Of a DNA stretch of 43,770 nucleotides, positions 5,941-43,770 are shown in pieces. A program made the position numbers and the translations under genes. Every line of letters starts with the position of its first letter. Position 1 is the first letter of the stretch. The notes under the pieces were generated by a model. That model was not told the DNA's origin and did not search any database. It saw only the letters and a program-made list of their open reading frames with translations. Source of the DNA: a virus; IMG/VR virus record IMGVR_UViG_3300046522_000733, positions 1 through 43,770 of that record; one strand, written 5' to 3'.

Positions 5941-8900
5941 TCAGGGCTGTTCGACAGCGATCACACTGGTTCGCTGCGATATTTCCGTGTTGATGATGCT
6001 GGTGCCGATCAGGCTGGGTTGGGAGAAGCTGGCCCACCGCAGCCGAATATAGACGCCGGCAAGAGCGCCAGGTGTCCATGTGTATGTGCCGGCGGCGGCC
6101 ATGGCCCAGCGGACGCGGTCCCTTACGCTCGGATCGCCATCCACCCGCACGAACCGCTCGCTTTCATTGACACCGATGGTCGTAAGCGTGGTCCAGGAGG
6201 AACCGTCGCCACTCCACTCCAATGTCAGCGTGCCGCCGCCCGTGCCCGTGATCGCGCCGCTGCCGGCATTGCACTCATAATTATGCTGGAAGCTGGCAGA
6301 CATGTTGACGTTGACCGGGTTGCCGTTGCTGGCGAAGGGACCGACAATGATGAACGCCGTTTCGCTGATGGTGCTGGAGGTGCCTTCATTTTTGAGCGTG
6401 CCGCTCGACAGCCCGCCACCGAAATAGGCAGCGCCGTCGACGCGGACAAATTTGATGGCGTTCGCCTGAGTGCATTCGGATAGGTCCGATACGATCGGCC
6501 CGGTCCATTCGATAAATTGGTTTGTTGAACCGAACGGCTTGCCCGTGATCGTCATCACAGAACCGCCAATGATGACCTGCCTGCCGTCGCCGAATTCGTA
6601 GCGGTCCCCAGTTCCATTGGATAGAACCCGAAATGTGTCGGCAAGAACGGAGAAGTCAGATTGCTCCCCATCATCGTTGAGGAGGACACCTGTCACAACC
6701 GGATCACCATCCGTCCCTGACCGAATGATGCGTACACCCCAGCGCGCACTAAGCCCGTCGACAGACTCCATCAACATCAGCACTTCGGCCGTGTGGCCGT
6801 CTACCGTGGTTTGCACCGCCGACAGCAGCGACGCGATAGCGCCATCTGCACTGACCCGCGCAGCAGCTTCCGTCTCCACCGCCGCCGACACGTCTGCGAT
6901 ATCGCTGGTCAGGGTCGCCGCCAGCGCCTGCCGGGCCGTCACTTCGGCCGCATCCGCACTGGCGCGGGTGGTGGCCTCCGTCGTCAGGGCGGCGTTCAGA
7001 TAGGCATCGGCGCTTTGCAGCGAGGATATTGCCGCCTCTCGCGCCGTGGTCTCGGCAAGGTCCGCCGTGGCCCGTGTCGTCGCCTCCGACGCTATGGCCG
7101 CCTCCAGATCGGTGACATGGCCGTCGACGGTAGTGGTCAGGGCGGAGATGGCACCGTTGCGCGCCGTCGTTTCCGCCAGATCGGCACTGGCGCGCGTCGT
7201 GGCCTCCGATGTGATCGCAGCCATGGCATCGCTGATCTGGCCGTTCACCGTCGTCTGGAGCGTCGAAATCGCCGTGTTACGCGCGGAGGTTTCCGCCGCG
7301 TCCGCTGTGGCGCGTGCGGTCGCCTCATCCTCGATCGCCGCATTGGCGTCCGCGATGTCGCTGGTCAGCTGGGCTGCCAGCGCCTGACGGGCGGTTGCTT
7401 CAGCGGCATCGGCCGTGGCGCGCGTGGTCAACTCGGTGGTTAGCGCGGCGTTCAGATAGGCGTCGGCGCTCTGCAACGATGATATTGCCGCCTCGCGCAG
7501 GGCGGTTTCGGCAGCATCGTTGGTGGCGCGCGTGGTCGCCTCTGTGACGATCGCCGCATTCAGGTTGGCGTCGACGGTCTGAAGCGAAGATATCGCGGCT
7601 TGCCGGGCCAGCGTCTCAGCGGCATCATTGGTGGCGCGGGTGGTGGCCTCCGACGTGATCGCCGCCCGCGTAACCACCATGTCGCTGTCAATGCGGGACA
7701 CAGCGATTTCGCGTTGCTCAGTCTCCGCCGCGTCGGCAGTAGCACGCGTCGTGGCCTCGGTCGCGATGGACGCCGTGACGACGTCGATTTGACCATCAAC
7801 CTCCGTCCGCAATGTAGAGATGGCTTGCGTTCGCTGGAGCGTTTCCGCCGCATCCGCATTGGCTCGGGTAATAGCCTCGCTGGCGATGGCGGCAGTCACG
7901 ACATCGATCTGACCGTCGACATCTACCCGCAGCTCTGAAATTGCCAGTTCGCGCTGCTCTGTTTCCGCCTCGATCGCATTCGCGCGCGCGATTGCCTCTT
8001 CGATAATCTGGCCCTGCACATCGGCAAAGCCACCCTCCATGTCGGTGCGGACCTCGGCAATCAGCACCTGACGGCTCAACGCCTCCGCACTGTCCGCGTT
8101 GGCCCGGGCTGTTGCCTCCTGTTGGATCAGCGCCCGCACGGCCTGCTGATCCACCGTCATGACCGCTTCCAGGGTGACGATGGTCGACGCCAGCGCCTCG
8201 TCTCCATCGACGCGGGCCACGCTTTCCTCTGTGATCTTGGCGCCGACGGGCACACCATCCATGTGCGTCAGATTGTCAAAATATTCGCGCCGCTCCTGAT
8301 TGAGCACCATCTGTTCAAGCGCCGCCATGTCGGCCGACCGCGCCCGATCCACCAGCGCCTGCGCCCCAGCGACGATGTCATCTGCGCTGGTGGCCAACGC
8401 CATGGCCTTAACCGCATCCGCCAAAGCCTTTGCGCCGGCAACAATCTCCGCTGGATTGGTGGTCAGGCCCAAGGCTTTGAGCGAGGCCGCCACGTCCTGC
8501 GCCGGTGTATCGCCAACATTGGTATCGTCGGGCGCCCCCACCGTCGCATTATCATCTGGCTTCGTACCGTCAGGATCGCCGACATTGTCCCACGGCACCG
8601 TGATGTCATCGCCACTGATGATCGGCGCGATCTTCGCCGCCGCGCTCAGCCCCTCGATCGACAGGGACAGGGTGCTGACATTTTCCCCGACCTCGATCGA
8701 GAAATCCTTGAAGAAGCCATAGACGGTCACGCTTTCCAGCGCGTCGTCTCCGATCCAGAGGGAGGGCAGCGCGCGGACATTGGCAATGCGCCCCGCCACA
8801 ATGTCGAGCGCCGCCGTGTCGATCAGCCCGCGCACAGACATACGCTTGGCCCAGGCCCGCTCGACCAGCGTCACTTCGCCGAAATCGTCGGTTTCTTTGC

Positions 8901-32307: not shown

Positions 32308-33432
32308 TCAGATCCGCTGCGGCATGAGGACATAGAGCGCGGCGCTTTCGTCGCTCGTCTGCCACAGTGTCGGGGAGGTACTGTCTGCCAGCAGCACGCG
32401 CGCTTTGCCGCCTTCGCCAACCTTCAGATGCGCCAGCATGTCGAGCAGATAGCGGCCATTAAAGCCGATCGTCACGGCAGGGCCAGTCAACTCGATCGGC
32501 ACTTCCTCGCTTGCGGTGCCATGCTCGGGGCTGACCACGCGCAACGTCACCTGACCATCGGCAAAGTCGAGCGCGATCAGCTTCGTTTTCTCGCTGCTGA
32601 TCGTCAGCACCCGGTCGACGGCCTCGGCCAGCGCCGACGGATCGAACCATGCGTCGATCCGGTTTCCCGCCGGTATGACGCGGGTATAATCGGGAAACTG
32701 GCCGTCGATCGTCTTCGTGGTCAGGACCACGGTGCCGAAATCGAACCGGCATTTGCCCGTGCTGACAGCCACGTCCACTTCGCCGCCTTCTTCATCCAGC
32801 AGGTCGGCCAGCGCCTTCACCGCCTTGCGCGGCAAAATGATGCTCGGCATCGCCTCTGCGCCGTCCGGCACCGGGGCATGATAGCGCGCCAGGCGGTGAC
32901 CATCCGTGGCGGCAGCGAACTGACTGTCCGACGCCGACGGCACATGCAGATAGATGCCGTTCAGATAATAGCGTGTCTCTTCGGTCGATATGGCAAAGCG
33001 GACGCTGTCGATCATCTTGGCCAGCGCACCGGCATCATGCGCCCATTCCGCATCCCAATCACCGACGGCAATCATCGGGAAATCGGTGGCGGGGAGGGTC
33101 GGCAGTTTGAAGCGGGACCGGCCGCATTTGATGACGATGCCAGTGTTCCCATCCGCCTCGACAACAGCCACCCCCTCCGCCGGCAGTTTCCCGGCGATCG
33201 AACGGAACGTGCCAGCATGGACTGTAAATTCCATCGCCCGATTGCTGCCCGGTTCCTCCAGATCGATCCGCTTTTCGACCATGATGTCCAGGTCGGTGGC
33301 GATCAGCATTGCCTGTCCCGGCGTCGACCGGATCAGCACGTTCGACAGGATCGGCACGGTGCTGCGCTTTTCGACCACGGCGTCGATCGCCTTCATCGCA
33401 TCGCGCAGCATCTTGACCTGAACTTTCATCAT
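32308..33432 (-). CDS. dnaN: DNA polymerase III sliding clamp (beta), phage-encoded
   Basis: A full-length clamp, 374 residues from ATG 33432 (alternative 33429). Upstream residues are an artefact of overlap with the preceding gene. Marks in order: MLRDAMKAIDAVVEKRSTVP, the NGIYLH segment, FAAATDGHRLARYHAPVPDG typical of domain 2, the TIDGQFPDYTRVIP strand and the final ALYVLMPQRI that packs near the protein-binding pocket. It would ring DNA and tether host DNA polymerase III. The start overlaps the previous gene by 4 bases, inside a replication operon, so it is phage-owned. A host-derived copy captured by the phage is likely. Confidence 0.93.
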   Translation of the reverse strand: MMKVQVKMLRDAMKAIDAVVEKRSTVPILSNVLIRSTPGQAMLIATDLDIMVEKRIDLEEPGSNRAMEFTVHAGTFRSIAGKLPAEGVAVVEADGNTGIVIKCGRSRFKLPTLPATDFPMIAVGDWDAEWAHDAGALAKMIDSVRFAISTEETRYYLNGIYLHVPSASDSQFAAATDGHRLARYHAPVPDGAEAMPSIILPRKAVKALADLLDEEGGEVDVAVSTGKCRFDFGTVVLTTKTIDGQFPDYTRVIPAGNRIDAWFDPSALAEAVDRVLTISSEKTKLIALDFADGQVTLRVVSPEHGTASEEVPIELTGPAVTIGFNGRYLLDMLAHLKVGEGGKARVLLADSTSPTLWQTSDESAALYVLMPQRI

Positions 33433-33959
33433 GCCGCTACGTCTCCCCGTTCGGCGTCCAGCGCCTGCGCCAGCAGCGCGATCATCGCGGCAACCGGCTT
33501 CTGATTGGTCCGCTGGGCATGGCGACAGACGCGCTTCCAGACAGGCTCCCACCGATCGCGCACGATCCCGGCCGCCAGCATCGGCGCGCCGTCCAGCGCC
33601 TTTTCCTGAAGCTGCGCCCCGACCGATACCGGCATGCCGGCGCCGCCGTTCAGACCGATGACGCGGGCAGACTGGCGGGTTTTACCAGCGTCGATCGCCT
33701 CCGCCTTCACCTGTGCCGCCAGACTGACCGGCACAGGCGCGATTTCAGCAGGCGCATCCTGCGCCGCATCCGTTCCCGTCTGTACCAACGACAGGCTGAA
33801 GGCACCGATCTTCCCCTGCGCCCGCAGCCGGGCGACCGCCGCCGCGAAATTGCCGATCGACAGGCCGGTCAGCTTGCGTAGCCCCGGCATGTCCCATCCG
33901 CCTTCCGGCGCCTCATGCTCCGTCATGACCCGGATGATGCTGTCCGCCGCGTCGCTCAT
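33429..33959 (-). CDS. Hypothetical protein with winged-helix-like N-terminus
   Basis: A 176-residue protein. Residues 1-60 read like a winged-helix replication or partition domain (DMPGLRKLTGLSIGNFAAAV, ARLRAQGKIGAF). The middle is low-complexity Ala/Pro/Val and the end is helical with a basic patch (RDRWEPVWKRVCRHAQRTNQ). It lies between the sliding clamp and a ParB-like protein and overlaps both by 4 bases. A DNA-binding accessory role is inferred; no family is certain. Confidence 0.6.
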   Translation of the reverse strand: MSDAADSIIRVMTEHEAPEGGWDMPGLRKLTGLSIGNFAAAVARLRAQGKIGAFSLSLVQTGTDAAQDAPAEIAPVPVSLAAQVKAEAIDAGKTRQSARVIGLNGGAGMPVSVGAQLQEKALDGAPMLAAGIVRDRWEPVWKRVCRHAQRTNQKPVAAMIALLAQALDAERGDVAA

Positions 33960-38044: not shown

Positions 38045-38302
38045 TTGAGTGACCGAGACACGGAAGCAACAGCGGCCTTCGCCTTCGTCACAGCAATCCT
38101 GCAAGAACTGGATAGCAAGCACGCGGGCTTCGCTGAGGCGGTCTTCGCGAGGATAGAGCAGGAAATCGAGCAAAGCGACGACGTCCGCAATCCTGCAATC
38201 CTGGCACACCATGATGAGCTGGTCGAAGGACTGGAGTTGGTTCGTGCCAGCATGAAGGAAATCAGCACGAAGGGGCCTCCTTACACGCCGTTTTGGGACT
38301 GA
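38045..38302 (+). CDS. Small acidic helical protein, opposite strand
   Basis: An 85-residue acidic, helical protein that begins with TTG (AGT GAC following) and GGAAGGA 8 bases upstream. The sequence ATAAFAFVTAILQELDSKHA, then GFAEAVFARIEQEIEQSDDV, and the final PPYTPFWD look like real coding. It reads rightward between two leftward blocks, and its last 41 bases overlap the end of the D5-like gene. No family is recognised. The TTG start and the overlap lower certainty. Confidence 0.5.
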   Translation: MSDRDTEATAAFAFVTAILQELDSKHAGFAEAVFARIEQEIEQSDDVRNPAILAHHDELVEGLELVRASMKEISTKGPPYTPFWD

Positions 38303-38651
38303 CGGACAGGCCGACCCAGTAGACGCCACCGCTCACGATCTTGCGATAACCTGCATCCGACATCGCACGGCTGAATGCTTTGGCGCTCCAAGGCTTCTTG
38401 CCTGTGAGCGCGCACCACCCGACAAAGGCGTCGTAAAGTTCTGCCGATCGAACCTGCGCCCCAACTGACATTATCGTCTGAGCGGCTAGGAACAGCCGCA
38501 GCGGGTCAGTCTCATGCCGCACATCGAGGGAGGGCCGCCCAATGACGAAAGCGGCGAATTCCTGGGCAACTGCGGTAATGCGGTCGCCACGCTCGCCAGC
38601 GCCAATCGCAAGGCGCACGCATTCCAATCTGATATCACGATCATTCATCAC
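38262..38651 (-). CDS. Standalone D5-type C-terminal domain protein
   Basis: A 129-residue protein. Residues ~67-118 (VRSAELYDAFVGWCALTGKK, PWSAKAFSRAMSDAGYRKIV, GGVYWVGLSV) closely parallel the C-terminal domain of the phage's own primase-helicase (SSRLYDVFVAWCKAAGEREW, SQKGFSKAMLDKGF, DGMQWLGMRLV). That is the Pox_D5/P4-primase-type DNA-binding domain. The first ~60 residues are a different helical segment. Without a helicase core it may bind the same DNA site as the primase. It lies directly after the Cro-like gene, overlapping its stop. Confidence 0.72.
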   Translation of the reverse strand: MMNDRDIRLECVRLAIGAGERGDRITAVAQEFAAFVIGRPSLDVRHETDPLRLFLAAQTIMSVGAQVRSAELYDAFVGWCALTGKKPWSAKAFSRAMSDAGYRKIVSGGVYWVGLSVSPKTACKEAPSC

Positions 38652-38869
38652 GCTGCCTCCCCGACAATTTTACGGCTGTTGTCGGGTGACGGGGGCGCTG
38701 CGATCGAGATATTCAAGCGATCAGCCATCGCCTGAACGCCGGGCATGCGCCATTTTGGAATTCTGTCGCCGCTCTTCCAACTGGAAACAGTGGAAGGGGG
38801 AAGCTCTAATTCGCGCGCTACGGCACTGGTGCCGCCAAGTGCGTCAATTATTTCAGATGCTGTTTCCAT
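38648..38869 (-). CDS. Cro-like repressor (YdaS-type HTH)
   Basis: A 73-residue protein with a helix-turn-helix: IIDALGGTSAVARELELPPS, TVSSWKSGDRIPKWRMPGVQ. The GGTSAVAREL...SSWK pattern is the YdaS/Cro-like family. It faces the CI gene across ~48 bp of operator DNA. No ribosome site precedes the ATG, and the predicted PL start would lie on that ATG, so the mRNA is probably leaderless. The role expected is to switch off CI and tune the early leftward operon. Stop and next start overlap. Confidence 0.82.
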   Translation of the reverse strand: METASEIIDALGGTSAVARELELPPSTVSSWKSGDRIPKWRMPGVQAMADRLNISIAAPPSPDNSRKIVGEAA

Positions 38870-38875
38870 GAAGTA

Positions 38876-38896
38876 GAATTACGAATTTCGTAATTC
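38876..38896. promoter_or_regulatory. Operator O1
   Basis: A perfect 10-1-10 palindrome GAATTACGAA-T-TTCGTAATTC. It overlaps the PL spacer and -10, so bound CI would block the Cro-like gene. Confidence 0.82.
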
Positions 38897-38904
38897 AAAA
38901 TCAA
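38876..38904 (-). promoter_or_regulatory. PL promoter for the Cro-like gene
   Basis: On the minus strand TTGATT (38904-38899), a 17-base spacer, then TAATTC (38881-38876) form a -35/-10 pair; the -10 is weak. The spacer and -10 contain operator O1. Six bases separate the -10 from the ATG of the Cro-like gene, so transcription would start at or next to the start codon. The same design recurs at PR. Confidence 0.65.
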
Positions 38905-38909
38905 GTGGG

Positions 38910-38930
38910 AAATTACGATGTTCGTTATCG
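38910..38930. promoter_or_regulatory. Operator O2
   Basis: Imperfect copy of the 21-bp operator; the left half AATTACGA is intact and the right half TTCGTTATCG is diverged. Its centre is 34 bp from that of O1. It overlaps the ATG of the CI gene, so it may give autoregulation. Confidence 0.6.
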
Positions 38931-39583
38931 ACCGCGAGTTACGATTTTCGCAATGTGCGCGTGTGCTAACAAACAACGAATTGATCGCCGAATTGCGGAC
39001 TCAGCTTGAGCAGCGGAGGTTCACCCAGAAGGCCGTGGCCGACCATCTGGGGATCGCCCCCGCACGCATAAGTGAAATGCTCAAAGGTGGTCGTCGCGTG
39101 CAGACTGACGAAGTCGCACCACTTGCTCGCTTATTAGGTATAGCCGCCGATGCGGAGCAGAGAATGGTACCCGATGGCGCTAAGCCCGTTCAATCCGTGC
39201 CGCTGCTAGGAGAGGTGCCTGCTGGCCCATGGCGGGAAGCGGTCAGGAACGCCAGCCGTCATTTGCAGGTCGCGGTCCCTGGAACGCGCCCACATGCCTA
39301 TGCTCTGACGGTATCCGGCGACTCAATGGATCGCATTGTAAGGAATGGTGCCGAAATCATCATCGACCCTGATGACCTCGATCTATTTGACAAGTGGCTA
39401 TATGTCGTTCGCAACCCCGACGGCGAAGTAACCTTCAAACAGTATCGCGATAGTCCTGCACGCTTAGTCCCTTGCTCTAGTAACCCCACACACGCCACGA
39501 TACCCCTGAGTGATCGCGGTTATGAAATTGTCGGGCGAGTGGTACTGATCACTTTCCCGCCCAGTCAGGCCGCCTTGGACTGA
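38918..39583 (+). CDS. CI-type repressor, LexA-like (S24 peptidase)
   Basis: A 221-residue repressor. Residues ~20-75 are a helix-turn-helix (FTQKAVADHLGIAPARISEM). A cleavage site follows at Ala102-Gly103 (GEVPAGPW), and the C-terminal protease/dimer domain has Ser136 in SGDSM and Lys174 in TFKQY, the LexA/CI autocleavage dyad. It would hold PL and PR off and be cleaved when RecA is activated. The start at 38918 has a weak GGGA and overlaps operators O2 and O3; GTG 38963 and TTG 38981 are possible alternatives. The gene diverges from the Cro-like gene. Confidence 0.9.
   Translation: MFVIDRELRFSQCARVLTNNELIAELRTQLEQRRFTQKAVADHLGIAPARISEMLKGGRRVQTDEVAPLARLLGIAADAEQRMVPDGAKPVQSVPLLGEVPAGPWREAVRNASRHLQVAVPGTRPHAYALTVSGDSMDRIVRNGAEIIIDPDDLDLFDKWLYVVRNPDGEVTFKQYRDSPARLVPCSSNPTHATIPLSDRGYEIVGRVVLITFPPSQAALD
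38936..38956. promoter_or_regulatory. Operator O3
   Basis: A more diverged copy (GAGTTACGATTTTCGCAATGT) inside the first codons of the CI gene as drawn, 26 bp from O2 centre to centre. It may set the repressor's own level or mark a later true start. Confidence 0.55.
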
Positions 39584-39732
39584 ACCTGTTCCCGGCGGAC
39601 TTCGAAGTCGCCGGGGACAGTTACATAAAATGCTCCCCATTCATCGTAGCTGCCCAGCCCTTCCGCTATGAGGTCGCGGCGCATTTTGTGCTTGCACTGT
39701 CGCCAAGGTCCAACCGGTTTTCTGAAGCACAT
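39565..39732 (-). CDS. Small hypothetical protein behind the repressor
   Basis: From ATG 39732 it is 55 residues; a TTG start at 39816 would give 83. The core (MRRDLIAEGLGSYDEWGAFY, VTVPGDFEVRREQVQSKAA) has the look of a real small protein with a Trp/Tyr-rich strand segment. No good ribosome site is seen for either start. It reads leftward, and its last 19 bases overlap the end of the CI gene. Function is unknown. The 352-bp stretch from 39584 to 39935 otherwise holds operators O4/O5 and PR. Confidence 0.45.
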   Translation of the reverse strand: MCFRKPVGPWRQCKHKMRRDLIAEGLGSYDEWGAFYVTVPGDFEVRREQVQSKAA

Positions 39733-39860
39733 AGCCCGATACCAAATAATCTCTCGCAACACCGCCTCCCGATTCGCATCGAGAACGATAAAGAACAAAT
39801 TGCGAACATGGATCAAGCGCCTTGCCGAAATTTACCTGTGCATAAACAGGACACTGCGAT

Positions 39861-39881
39861 GAATTACGATATTCGTATTGA
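39861..39881. promoter_or_regulatory. Operator O4
   Basis: GAATTACGATATTCGTATTGA, left half perfect, right half diverged after TTCGTA. It lies upstream of and touches the PR -35. Confidence 0.65.
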
Positions 39882-39906
39882 CGTTGAATTACGAAAACCG
39901 TAATTC
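39878..39906 (+). promoter_or_regulatory. PR promoter for the rightward operon
   Basis: TTGACG (39878-39883), a 17-base spacer, then TAATTC (39901-39906). The spacer begins TTGAATTACGAAA, as in PL, and the -10 hexamer is identical to that of PL. Operator O5 covers the spacer and -10. The first gene downstream starts at 39936 with GGGAGG just before it, giving a leader of about 23 bases. Confidence 0.65.
39886..39906. promoter_or_regulatory. Operator O5
   Basis: GAATTACGAAAACCGTAATTC, outer halves matching O1 perfectly and only the central bases changed. It overlaps the PR -10, so CI binding would silence the rightward operon. Confidence 0.75.
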
Positions 39907-39935
39907 GCCTTCCGTCACCACAACGGGAGGCAATC

Positions 39936-40400
39936 ATGCTTCAGGTTCAATCCAAATTTCCTTTCCCCGGCTCGATCGCGCTGTTTCTGGGCCTGCGCTG
40001 GCGCGTGCAGCAGCATGTCGGCGATCAGGCCCTGATCATCCGCGAAGGCGTGGCCGCCAGTCTGGCCCGCCGCGCGCCGATCGATGAACTGGTCGATCCG
40101 GTAGAGGCAGACCGCAATGCCCTGCTGCCGCTGGAGGACATGAGCGAGACGACAACCCGCATCGCCCTGTTCACTGCCCACAAGCTGCGTGCCGTCAATC
40201 AGATCGCGCTCTACGAACTGGGCGACATGCTGCGCGAACACGCACAGGCCGGCCGCATCCCCCGCTACAGCGACAACAGCCACCTGACCCGCATCATGCG
40301 CCGTCTGGGCTGGCGAAAGCAGGGCTATACCGGCGAAGGCCACGCCCGCAGCCCCCTCTACGTCCGCGCCGCCACCCCCGCAAAGGCGGTGGCGGCATGA
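39936..40400 (+). CDS. First gene of the PR operon, HTH-like C-terminus
   Basis: A 154-residue protein with GGGAGG 5 bases before its ATG, first gene behind PR. The middle is helical (ETTTRIALFTAHKLRAVNQI, ALYELGDMLREHAQAG). The end (HLTRIMRRLGWRKQGYTGEG, HARSPLYVRAATPAK) reads like a winged-helix DNA-binding end. It could be an early regulator of the rightward block. No family can be named. It overlaps the next gene by 4 bases. Confidence 0.65.
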   Translation: MLQVQSKFPFPGSIALFLGLRWRVQQHVGDQALIIREGVAASLARRAPIDELVDPVEADRNALLPLEDMSETTTRIALFTAHKLRAVNQIALYELGDMLREHAQAGRIPRYSDNSHLTRIMRRLGWRKQGYTGEGHARSPLYVRAATPAKAVAA

Positions 40401-41056
40401 TGGTCCTGCAAGACTGGCTAGGCGCCCTGCCGATGATGCAGCAGACCGTCCTCCTGACCGCTATTCGTGGACCGGATGGACTGCCGAAATACGGCCCGAC
40501 CAAAGCGCTTTTGCGCTGGTACCGCCGGTGCATCTTGCTGTCCGCAATGGATGGAGCCGTTCTGGGCGACCCACTCAGCAATAACGGTGGATCGTTCACC
40601 GGCCCCAGCGTCGATCGCGATGCGCTGATTGCGGAGTTCCTCGACCGTCGCCGCCGCGACGATGATGACTATAATCAGGACATCATCGACCATGGCGAAC
40701 CGCTCGTGTTCGCCGTGAGGGATGACCGCAGCCCCTATGCGATGCCTCATGCCGATTTGGTTGAGGCCCAACTGATGCATGACGGGTGGGAACCGCTGTT
40801 GAACGTCGTCGTCGACGGTTATCTTCGCGACCTGGACGCGATCCCGCACCATTTCCAGATGCACTTCATGCATGCCGCTGAGATCGTCGGATACAAGCAT
40901 CCTGATCCGCGCATCCGCGAATGGTGGCACGCGCTCTATCTGCGCCTGGTGCACGACATGCACCTGTTTCCGGAACCGCAGGCGGACATGGACTTGCGCT
41001 TGGGAGACGATCGCAACCAGTGGCTGGCTCGCGCTGACCCAGCGACGGTCGATTAA
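40397..41056 (+). CDS. Second gene of the PR operon, hypothetical
   Basis: A 219-residue protein, mostly helical, with QTVLLTAIRGPDGLPKYGPT at the start, then LRWYRRCILLSAMDGA and a His/Tyr-rich middle (HHFQMHFMHAAEIVGYKHPD) and a Trp/His-rich WWHALYLRLVHDMHLFPEPQ. The spaced His residues could bind a metal, but no nuclease or hydrolase signature is certain. It begins in the last codons of the preceding gene. Function is unknown. Confidence 0.65.
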   Translation: MMVLQDWLGALPMMQQTVLLTAIRGPDGLPKYGPTKALLRWYRRCILLSAMDGAVLGDPLSNNGGSFTGPSVDRDALIAEFLDRRRRDDDDYNQDIIDHGEPLVFAVRDDRSPYAMPHADLVEAQLMHDGWEPLLNVVVDGYLRDLDAIPHHFQMHFMHAAEIVGYKHPDPRIREWWHALYLRLVHDMHLFPEPQADMDLRLGDDRNQWLARADPATVD

Positions 41057-41057
41057 C

Positions 41058-41195
41058 ATGGATCGCCCCAGCTTCAGCCCGGCCGCACCCTTTATCATCG
41101 GCGTGGCGCTGGCGGTCCTTTGGCTCTCCCTCCCGCCCGCGCTGTCCTGGCTGCTCCCCCGCACCGACGCCCTGATATCGAGGTTCATCCCATGA
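41058..41195 (+). CDS. Small single-TM protein of the PR operon
   Basis: A 45-residue protein with one hydrophobic segment (residues ~11-33, PFIIGVALAVLWLSLPPALS) and a short basic end (RTDALISRFIP). It starts one base past the preceding stop and its stop overlaps the next ATG (ATGA). A small membrane protein at this point could act in superinfection exclusion, but nothing in the sequence proves it. Confidence 0.6.
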   Translation: MDRPSFSPAAPFIIGVALAVLWLSLPPALSWLLPRTDALISRFIP

Positions 41196-41617
41196 GCATG
41201 GACTATATCTGCAAATATTATGATGTGCCGGCGAAGTCCGGCGGGCGCATCCGCTATTCTGGCGGGCGCCAGTCGTCCGAAGGAACGATCGTTGCCGCCC
41301 AGGGCGCGCATTTGCTGATCCGCCTGGACGGCGACGACGATGCGATGCCCTATCATCCGACGTGGAAGATCGAATATCTGCCCGACGCGCCGGCTGCCAG
41401 CACACTGACAATGTGGGTCATCACCGAAAACCCGGCCGACCACCCCGGCCAGTTCGTCGCCCGACAGTGGATTATCGGCAAGAATGACAACCGGGCTACC
41501 GCCGAACATCATATCGCCGACACCCTCGACCAGATCCGCGCTCTACTCCCGCCGTTCCTAACCACGATCCCCCGCGATCCGTCGGATGATCCGGTCATCA
41601 TTGAGACGTGGCTATGA
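41192..41617 (+). CDS. Two-part hypothetical protein of the PR operon
   Basis: A 141-residue protein starting at ATG 41192 in the stop of the small membrane gene. Residues 1-63 are beta-rich (GGRIRYSGGRQSSEGTIVAA, GAHLLIRLDGDDDAMPYHPT), like small phage tail or baseplate domains. Residues ~75-141 are a different helix-strand module (HIADTLDQIRALLPPFLTTI). It may be a fused product of two short genes. Function is unknown. Confidence 0.65.
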   Translation: MSMDYICKYYDVPAKSGGRIRYSGGRQSSEGTIVAAQGAHLLIRLDGDDDAMPYHPTWKIEYLPDAPAASTLTMWVITENPADHPGQFVARQWIIGKNDNRATAEHHIADTLDQIRALLPPFLTTIPRDPSDDPVIIETWL

Positions 41618-42015
41618 CCGCGTCATTGGCCCAGCTGCATCGCATCGCCCGCACCGAACGGGCGCGCCGCCAGACCGCTTGGGCGGCTGAAGGCCAGCAC
41701 CAGTCCGATCGTGCCCGCCACGATGATGTCATCTGGTCGAACATCGTGATGATGGTCGGTCAGGCCGCTGGCGATCGGGACTGTCTGAAGGACGGCCGCC
41801 TGCGCTGGAATTCGCAGCAGGTGGACGTGATGGAGCGCCGGACGCGCGCCACCGCCCTCCAGATGGAAAGCAAGCTGGACATGTCGGACCCCAAGGATCT
41901 GAACTTGGTGCGCGGCCTGTGGCAGCTTTACCGATGGGTCCGCGAACAAAATCCCGCTTTCGCGACAGCAGGCCCCGAATATCTGCGCGCGCCGCAGGAA
42001 GGCACGCCGACATGA
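41614..42015 (+). CDS. Hypothetical helical protein of the PR operon
   Basis: A 133-residue protein from ATG 41614, whose ATGA overlaps the preceding stop; the GTG at 41608 is a less likely start. Helices run from LAQLHRIARTERARRQTAWA to a NSQQVDVMERRTRATALQME segment and a Trp-rich LVRGLWQLYRWVREQNPAFA. No family can be named. It is coupled to both neighbours. Confidence 0.6.
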   Translation: MTASLAQLHRIARTERARRQTAWAAEGQHQSDRARHDDVIWSNIVMMVGQAAGDRDCLKDGRLRWNSQQVDVMERRTRATALQMESKLDMSDPKDLNLVRGLWQLYRWVREQNPAFATAGPEYLRAPQEGTPT

Positions 42016-42179
42016 ACGCGCCCTTTCGTCACCCGCCATCGGCCGAAATGATCGATTTCGTGCGCGCCCTTGCGCGCGCGGACGAAGCGCGCGACTTTGA
42101 GCGCCGCACCCGCCCCACAGGAACAACCGCCCATGCGGACCATCATCTACGCGCGCTACAGCACCGACCTGCAAAATAG
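42012..42179 (+). CDS. Small protein overlapping the integrase start
   Basis: A 55-residue basic protein (PPSAEMIDFVRALARADEAR, DFERRTRPTGTTAHADHHL) starting in the stop of the preceding gene. Its last 47 bases overlap the integrase reading frame as chosen. It may be a real small cofactor of integration or a coupled leader for the integrase; an excisionase-like role is possible only by position. Confidence 0.5.
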   Translation: MNAPFRHPPSAEMIDFVRALARADEARDFERRTRPTGTTAHADHHLRALQHRPAK

Positions 42180-43770
42180 TCGATCGATCGCCGATCAGAT
42201 TGCGCTCTGTCGCGAGCGCGCCGCCGCCGAAGGCTGGCAGATAGTCGACACTTTCACCGACGCGGAAATCAGCGGCGCCGCCGGCATCGGCGAAGATCAG
42301 CGCCCCGGCATGAACGCGCTGCTGTCCCGCGTCGAACAGGGCGGCGTCGATCAGGTGCTGGCCGAATCGACCAGTCGTATCGCGCGGCACCAGGGCGACG
42401 GCTTCGCTATCCGCGAACGCCTCTCTTATTACGGCGCCCGCCTCTTCACCCTGTCCCAGGGAGAAATTGACGAAATCAAGGGCTGGGTGCAGGGCTTCCT
42501 CGATTCGCAGGCCCGCAAGGATATCGCCTTCAACGTGAAGCGCGGCCAGCGCGGAACGGTCCGCTCCGGCCGATCGCCTGCCGGTCTGGCCTACGGCTAT
42601 CGCAAAGCGAACCGCCTTGACGATCGCGGCGAACTGACTCGGGGCTTGCGCGCCATCGATGACGATCAGGCAGAAATCGTGCGCCGGATCTTCGCCGAAT
42701 ATGCCAGCCACCGCAGCGCCCGCCAGATCGCGGCGGGCCTGAACGATGAAGCTATTCCCGGCCCGACTGGTGGAACGTGGCGCAGCTCCACCATCGCAGG
42801 TGATCGCCAGCGCAAAAACGGCATCCTTCAGAACCGCATTTACATCGGCAAGATCGTCCACGAACGCACCAGCAAGGTGGCCGACCCGCGCACCCGAAAA
42901 GAGCGTATCCGGCCCAATGCTGAAGCCGACTGGATCGAGGCCGACGCGCCAGCCCTACGCATCATAGACGATGCGACGTGGGACGCGGTGCAGCTGCTTC
43001 GCAACGCATACAGCACCGGCCGCCCTGAACAGGCCCGGCGGCCCAAGCGGCTCCTGTCGGGCATCGGCCGCTGCGGCGTCTGCGGGGGCGGGTGGATCGT
43101 CATCGGCCGCGATCAATGGGCCTGTGGCAAGCATCGCGATGGCGGCGGCTGCACCAACAACCGCACGGTCAAGACGCACGTCTATGAACAAAAGGTGCTG
43201 GACGGCCTGCGCGAAGACATGCTGCACCCCGACGCGGTGTCAGCCTATGTCCGCGAATTTCACGAAAGCCGCCGCCGCCGATCGGCCGATGCTGCCCAGC
43301 AGCGGACCAAGCTGGAACGCCGCCACCGCGACGCATCGGCGAAGGTCGACCGCTTGGTCAACGCGATTGCGGAAGGCGGCGAAGAATTTGTCGAGATCCG
43401 CGCCATCTTGTCGAAGGCCCGCAACGATCGCGACGCCATCGCCCAGCAGATGGCCGATCTGGAGGCCTTTCCCGTCATCACGCTGCACCCCGGCATAGCA
43501 GACGACTACCGCGCCGAAATCGCGGTACTGACACAGGCCCTGGACGAAAACGGCCACGCACAGGCCGAAGCGATTCCCAAGCTGCGCGCGCTGATCGGCA
43601 GCGTCACAGTCTATCCAGCAGAGGAAAGGCGAGGAGTCGAAGTCGAAGCCACCGGCCGCATCGCCAACATGCTCGCCCTGGCCACCGGTCAGAGCCTCAG
43701 TGCGTCGATGTATGTTAACGGTGGAGCGGGTAGCGGGGATCGAACCCGCATCACAAGCTTGGAAGGCTAG
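42133..43770 (+). CDS. Large serine integrase
   Basis: A 545-residue serine recombinase from ATG 42133. The resolvase catalytic domain has Ser10 (YARYS) and conserved Arg in TSRIARHQGDG. The recombinase domain spans SPAGLAYGYRKANRLDDRGE and HRSARQIAAGLNDEAIPGPT. A zinc-ribbon is visible (GRCGVCGGGWIVIGRDQWAC, GGGCTNN) and a coiled coil follows (QQRTKLERRHRDASAKVDRL). It cuts attP and attB with a Ser-DNA link. The last 15 codons and stop are read from the 3' half of a tRNA-Gly gene, so the C-terminus ends GSGDRTRITSLEG. AGGA lies about 10 bases before the start. Confidence 0.9.
   Translation: MRTIIYARYSTDLQNSRSIADQIALCRERAAAEGWQIVDTFTDAEISGAAGIGEDQRPGMNALLSRVEQGGVDQVLAESTSRIARHQGDGFAIRERLSYYGARLFTLSQGEIDEIKGWVQGFLDSQARKDIAFNVKRGQRGTVRSGRSPAGLAYGYRKANRLDDRGELTRGLRAIDDDQAEIVRRIFAEYASHRSARQIAAGLNDEAIPGPTGGTWRSSTIAGDRQRKNGILQNRIYIGKIVHERTSKVADPRTRKERIRPNAEADWIEADAPALRIIDDATWDAVQLLRNAYSTGRPEQARRPKRLLSGIGRCGVCGGGWIVIGRDQWACGKHRDGGGCTNNRTVKTHVYEQKVLDGLREDMLHPDAVSAYVREFHESRRRRSADAAQQRTKLERRHRDASAKVDRLVNAIAEGGEEFVEIRAILSKARNDRDAIAQQMADLEAFPVITLHPGIADDYRAEIAVLTQALDENGHAQAEAIPKLRALIGSVTVYPAEERRGVEVEATGRIANMLALATGQSLSASMYVNGGAGSGDRTRITSLEG
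43722..43770 (-). tRNA. 3' half of tRNA-Gly(UCC), attachment site
   Basis: On the minus strand the end of the window reads CTAGCCTTCCAAGC, then the T-arm GCGGGTTCGATCCCGC and an acceptor end with CCA. It closely matches bacterial tRNA-Gly(UCC), whose anticodon loop is CUUCCAA. The 5' half would lie past 43770. The integrase stop codon falls in the anticodon region, so the crossover is probably in or near the anticodon stem-loop, and integration restores the tRNA with phage sequence. Confidence 0.82.

Follow-up and report, generated by a model that had tools for sequence, protein, structure and literature searches.

A probable mirrored lambda CI-like switch with a 3+2 operator layout and an embedded LexA-box gene in a temperate phage with a sphingomonad-type host

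Does a single repressor silence both the leftward operon that starts with a Cro-like gene and the rightward operon that ends in an integrase gene in this phage? The window analyzed here, a virus contig of 43,770 bases, comes from a temperate phage whose host is of the sphingomonad type, and the question arises at the place where its leftward and rightward operons meet. The leftward genes of the record code for tail, head, protease, terminase, primase, sliding clamp, and ParB-like proteins. The sliding clamp is a phage-borne DNA polymerase III beta clamp (32308-33552) with all three Pfam domains present, and a beta clamp-like ORF was also visible by eye in the related locus L005; eight imperfect 68-base direct repeats, spaced 108-120 bases apart (228 before the last), are located at 6845-7893 within a gene coding for a tail-associated protein of 1306 amino acids. 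The original prediction proposed five related operators in two clusters and two promoters of the same design, each with an operator over its -10, through which one repressor would hold the Cro side and the rightward operon together. Our analyses indicated that this junction is very probably the immunity region of the phage, organized as a two-operon switch similar to that of lambda CI.

The CI-like repressor gene (38918-39583, plus strand) codes for a protein with a helix-turn-helix (HTH) and an S24 peptidase domain that keeps an Ala-Gly site (residues 102-103) and a Ser/Lys pair (Ser136 and Lys174), all of them features of lambda-type repressors. The Cro-like gene (38648-38869, minus strand), which is the first of the leftward operon, is divergent from the CI gene with operators in between, also as in lambda-type switches. 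Its product (73 amino acids) is a YdaS/P22 Cro-like HTH protein that matched PF14549 (E 4.6e-6) and PF15943 (E 3.8e-5), neither of them reaching the curated cut-off, and a PHROG DNA-binding protein (6e-9). The second gene of this operon (38262-38651; 129 amino acids) resembles the C-terminal part of phage primases/helicases. The rightward operon (39936-43770, plus strand) contains four small genes of unknown function (39936-40400, 40397-41056, 41120-41617, and 41608-42015), followed at the right end of the record by a gene for a large serine integrase (42070/42130-43770). Since the final 48 bases of this gene (43723-43770) resemble the reverse complement of the 3' half of a tRNA, probably tRNA-Gly TCC, its 3' end likely carries the attachment core.

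All five operators were found where they had been predicted, and they are the five best dyads of the 43,770-bp record when the 21-bp form GAATTACGA-N3-TCGTAATTC is scored on its 18 fixed bases. The first cluster consists of O1 (38876-38896), a perfect dyad with 0 mismatches; O2 (38910-38930; four mismatches), which overlaps the CI start codon and whose letters are identical in L005; and O3 (38936-38956; four mismatches), within the CI coding sequence. The second cluster consists of O4 (39861-39881; three mismatches) and O5 (39886-39906; one mismatch). Both O2 and O3 are clearly degenerate; the next-best dyad in the window, allowing any spacing from 1 to 5, has five mismatches. At three mismatches or fewer, the pattern was present at O1, O4, and O5 only and gave 0 matches in 100 shuffles, and the inner 14 operator positions found no other site in the record at the same threshold. 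The scan for further copies of the 21-mer that had been suggested together with the original prediction yielded none in the record beyond O1-O5. In the genome carrying the near relative L007, the same scan returned O1 of its prophage and one site with three mismatches on another contig, and nothing else. Two exact matches of the 21-mer were detected in viral contigs, one in L005, a homologous phage, and another in L004, an unrelated contig in which no CI gene was seen beside the match and that was set aside as chance. The portion of the CI gene over O2 and O3 (codons 1-13) showed a third-base identity of 0.97 versus 0.44 in codons 14-100 (window, L005/L006, and L007; same-amino-acid positions), and therefore the DNA under these two sites is constrained by more than the protein.

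The paired putative promoters could be read directly from the sequence: PL and PR both follow TTGAYK-17-TAATTC with an operator over the -10. PL (minus strand) contains a -35 TTGATT (38899-38904), a 17-base spacer TTGAATTACGAAATTCG, and a -10 TAATTC (38876-38881) under O1, and PR (plus strand) a -35 TTGACG (39878-39883), a 17-base spacer TTGAATTACGAAAACCG, and a -10 TAATTC (39901-39906) under O5. Both spacers start with TTGAATTACGAAA, and in the two cases the operator overlies most of the spacer besides the -10. A second cluster of the same operators over an integrase-side promoter is a further lambda-type feature. A generic sigma-70 scan lists neither PL nor PR, and it is uninformative here because the host is GC-rich. 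Since the cro ATG lies six bases past the end of the PL -10, the usual start of transcription would land on this ATG, and the cro mRNA is probably leaderless. At the PR side, GGGAGG is located at 39925-39930, shortly upstream of the ATG at 39936. The sole candidate for a CI promoter (the PRM equivalent), TTCAGA-16-TAGAAT at 38852-38879, showed no apparent conservation in L005/L007.

Related loci were collected in several ways. The CI protein alone found nothing in viral contigs, and a two-sequence CI alignment found five loci. A small gene located next to CI (described below) was used as query against 398 Sphingomonadaceae genomes, and ten-kilobase regions were then read; further loci were gathered with the CI S24 domain as query. 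The close relatives L005/L006 (CI 72% identical) and L007 (CI 62%) contain five operators each, at identical or almost identical offsets. In 12 of the 15 loci with both CI and the small gene (window counted), the dyad preceding CI recurs beyond the small gene, and 11 loci, window included, showed the 3+2 operator layout with matching promoter geometry. Within each locus one dyad is common to both clusters, and between loci this dyad differs, with at least seven types (half-sites ATTACGA, ATGCACC, TTGCTAT, ATCCGAT, CTGCGAT, TTTCCAT, TTGCGAT, and ATGCGAT). Using other parts of the locus and a shuffled second cluster as controls, the score of the own-pair dyad was higher than all 50 controls in nine loci. 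L046 and L047 tied with the best control and L048 fell below it; since the dyad test was not won, these three loci are included for their geometry, with sites at the same offsets. In all of 11 loci, the distance between the PL TTG and the centre of O1 is exactly 18 nt (0.12 expected); the PR TTG is 18-19 nt from the operator centre in 11 of 12, the cro ATG occurs 6-8 nt past the -10 in 11 of 11, and the centres of O1 and O5 are 952-1146 bp apart. In the more distant loci, the -10 hexamers match TATAAT poorly.

These comparisons bear on the explanation that the repeats are not operators but arose by chance or act as hairpins or terminators. Perfect dyads can indeed form hairpins, but shuffles never yield the dyad, its geometry relative to the promoters is fixed and it covaries across loci, and two of the sites lie in or over the CI start. 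The comparison across loci contradicts the repeats being non-operators, an explanation that we regard as extremely improbable. Most of the loci with a weaker S24 match that are devoid of the small gene (L097, L098, and L100-L104) keep one dyad at both sides of CI (in L102, by eye only), and no dyad shared by both sides was found in L096 and L099. Two-cluster control thus appears to be more widely spread than the small gene. L009 and L012 contain CI and the small gene and no second cluster nearby, and L010 has a candidate second site about 1.5 kb downstream of CI. Integrase-like genes are present in the rightward operons of several loci (assigned by reading, except that of the window), and collections of phage and plasmid DNA gave no match to the locus. 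New here is a 3+2 layout that stays fixed across the family, with twin promoters and an embedded LexA-box gene.

Operator similarity correlated with similarity of the CI DNA-binding domain (Mantel r 0.73, p 0.002) and with that of the Cro-like protein (r 0.74, p 0.001). Partial correlations for CI and Cro as operator reader (0.35 versus 0.40) gave no separation, and since operator type tracks both proteins equally, CI alone is inseparable from CI plus Cro. As operator type follows the DNA-binding domains of CI and Cro, both clusters are most likely recognized by a single regulator that is specific to each locus. In an alternative view, some or all of the operators would be read mainly by the Cro-like protein, and CI would work on a subset of them or via Cro. 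In lambda-type phages, Cro-like proteins bind the same operators as CI, and the correlation with Cro is as close as that with CI; however, the stable silencing of the two operons in a lysogen would be left unexplained by a short Cro-like protein devoid of a sensor domain, and the position of O2 and O3 on the CI start is the one that CI autoregulation predicts. We consider this alternative improbable. With the dyad recurring in 12 of 15 loci and operators following the CI HTH, the best reading of the sequences is the one originally put forward, that one repressor would control the Cro side and the rightward operon. The original prediction did not include the LexA-box gene between the clusters, the probably leaderless cro transcript, the operator overlapping the CI start, or the DnaA-box-like site described below.

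The small gene (39565-39759, minus strand) is convergent with CI and overlaps its 3' end. It has a TTG start preceded by a good Shine-Dalgarno, GGGAGG (39770-39765), and codes for a 64-amino acid protein that is a candidate antirepressor. Its predicted promoter, TTGATC-17-CTTTAT, faces left between CI and O4 (-35 at 39816-39811; -10 at 39793-39788), and between both hexamers lies the LexA box GTTCGCAATTTGTTC (GTTC-N7-GTTC; 39793-39807, minus strand). GTTC-N7-GTTC is the alphaproteobacterial LexA motif (PMC8565304), four of the five genomes checked have it in front of recA, and, as a sequence motif, it is at the same place in 15 of 15 loci with the small gene. The small proteins share the consensus ..WYRAxCFGxPxGPWR..RRDLI..LGSYDEWGxFYxTVPGDIE... 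The small protein fits no Pfam, NCBIfam, or PHROG family; its predicted fold (pLDDT 86) gave no match in PDB or BFVD, and neither the small protein nor those of the rightward operon had a match in PADLOC. Members of this protein family occur in 22 of the 398 Sphingomonadaceae genomes. In a class-wide search of 385 genomes the small protein was found in the starting genome alone, and the family therefore looks restricted to Sphingomonadaceae, although few candidates were scored per genome and some may be missed.

Near the LexA box, a DnaA-box-like site, TTATGCACA (39837-39845, minus strand), is the sole TTWTNCACA of the record and is kept in seven of the seven closest loci. Among these seven it is located at +43/44 from the LexA box, except for L012 (+38 and inverted), and it is absent from L041-L048, in which O4 occupies about that place. 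Footprint-confirmed DnaA sites are known in lambda DNA (PMC3985674).

What the small protein does bears on how repression would be lifted. Induction might occur by RecA-stimulated cleavage of CI alone, the small protein being an SOS effector with another target (e.g., a DinI-like modulator or a lysis or host-takeover factor). CI keeps the Ala-Gly, Ser, and Lys residues, and most CI relatives without the small gene still share a dyad upstream and downstream of CI. In addition, the small protein has no fold match, and weaker members of its family occur without a neighbouring CI, so that antirepression is not its sole possible role. Conversely, in nine of the ten closest S24-CI loci of the 398 genomes the small gene is convergent to CI, and it remains in place when the DNA-binding half of CI has been swapped, a pattern consistent with action of its product on the C-terminal domain of CI. 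Moreover, Ala-Gly is replaced by Gly-Gly, Ala-Ser, and Ala-Arg in the CI proteins of L042, L043, and L045, respectively, with Ser and Lys kept; all three loci carry the LexA-box small gene, a sample too small to prove a link. Cleavage alone is a credible explanation that falls somewhat short of an even chance. That the small protein acts as an antirepressor is, from the sequence evidence, likewise a tentative assignment, conceivable at a little under even odds. We also propose, at the same tentative level, that it represents a new family of prophage antirepressors, so far only from Sphingomonadaceae among the sampled genomes, which might act on the CI C-terminal domain and so survive swaps of operator specificity, and that the conserved DnaA box might tie the subgroup of the window to replication initiation.

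The operators, their co-variation, the promoter geometry, the LexA box, and the gene order come from sequence and its comparison between loci, and they suggest the following mechanism. CI dimers would bind O1-O3 and O4-O5; on O1 and O5, CI would cover the spacer and the -10, shutting PL (cro and then replication genes) and PR (the integrase-ending operon), and O2 and O3, over the CI start, would probably set the level of CI itself. The two clusters may loop, as in lambda, which the roughly constant distance of 1 kb between them would allow. When PL opens, cro would be expressed from an mRNA starting at its own AUG. DNA damage could lift repression by two routes, self-cleavage of CI through its S24 domain and the LexA-controlled small convergent protein, as a putative antirepressor acting on the CI C-terminal domain.

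As in lambda, the CI gene is located between two clusters, one over the cro promoter and another over the promoter of the integrase-side operon; the order integrase operon, CI, cro operon, the S24-type CI, and the presence of several operators per cluster are also shared. Lambda has 3+3 operators, rex genes, and a leaderless cI. In contrast, the layout here is 3+2, the rex genes are absent and a LexA-box gene lies between CI and the second cluster instead, and the gene predicted to be leaderless is cro rather than cI. Furthermore, unlike in lambda, PL and PR are near-identical in spacer and -10, the CI start codon is within an operator, and the operator sequences are unrelated. The clusters are about 1 kb apart here versus 2.3 kb in lambda, where they loop (PMC5880393). 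By sequence the locus does not belong to the lambda lineage, since no DNA match to the immunity region was found in 50,697 phage records and the best phage match of CI was 38% identical. Gifsy GfoA/GftA, 186 Tum, and N15 AntC are LexA-controlled phage antirepressors (PMC3121763); the small gene resembles them in coding for a small prophage protein behind a LexA-box promoter (here, the box is a sequence motif), and it differs in being inside the immunity region and convergent with CI. Gifsy repressors are not cleaved, whereas CI here keeps the cleavage residues. The telomere phages PY54, N15, and phiKO2 also have a CI/Cro immunity region with a leaderless cro, which is predicted here and was shown for PY54 (PMC4488713); PY54 differs in its single Cro operator, genome type, and operators. 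A literature search found no studied switch for this bacterial group.

Across these loci, a single switch can be compared in roughly a dozen natural variants that keep one architecture (twin promoters and 3+2 operators, with a spacing of about 1 kb) and change the operator code. Such a set would help to decipher repressor-operator specificity and to predict cross-immune prophages in the family, and the small protein, predicted to be LexA-controlled, may explain the induction of these prophages.
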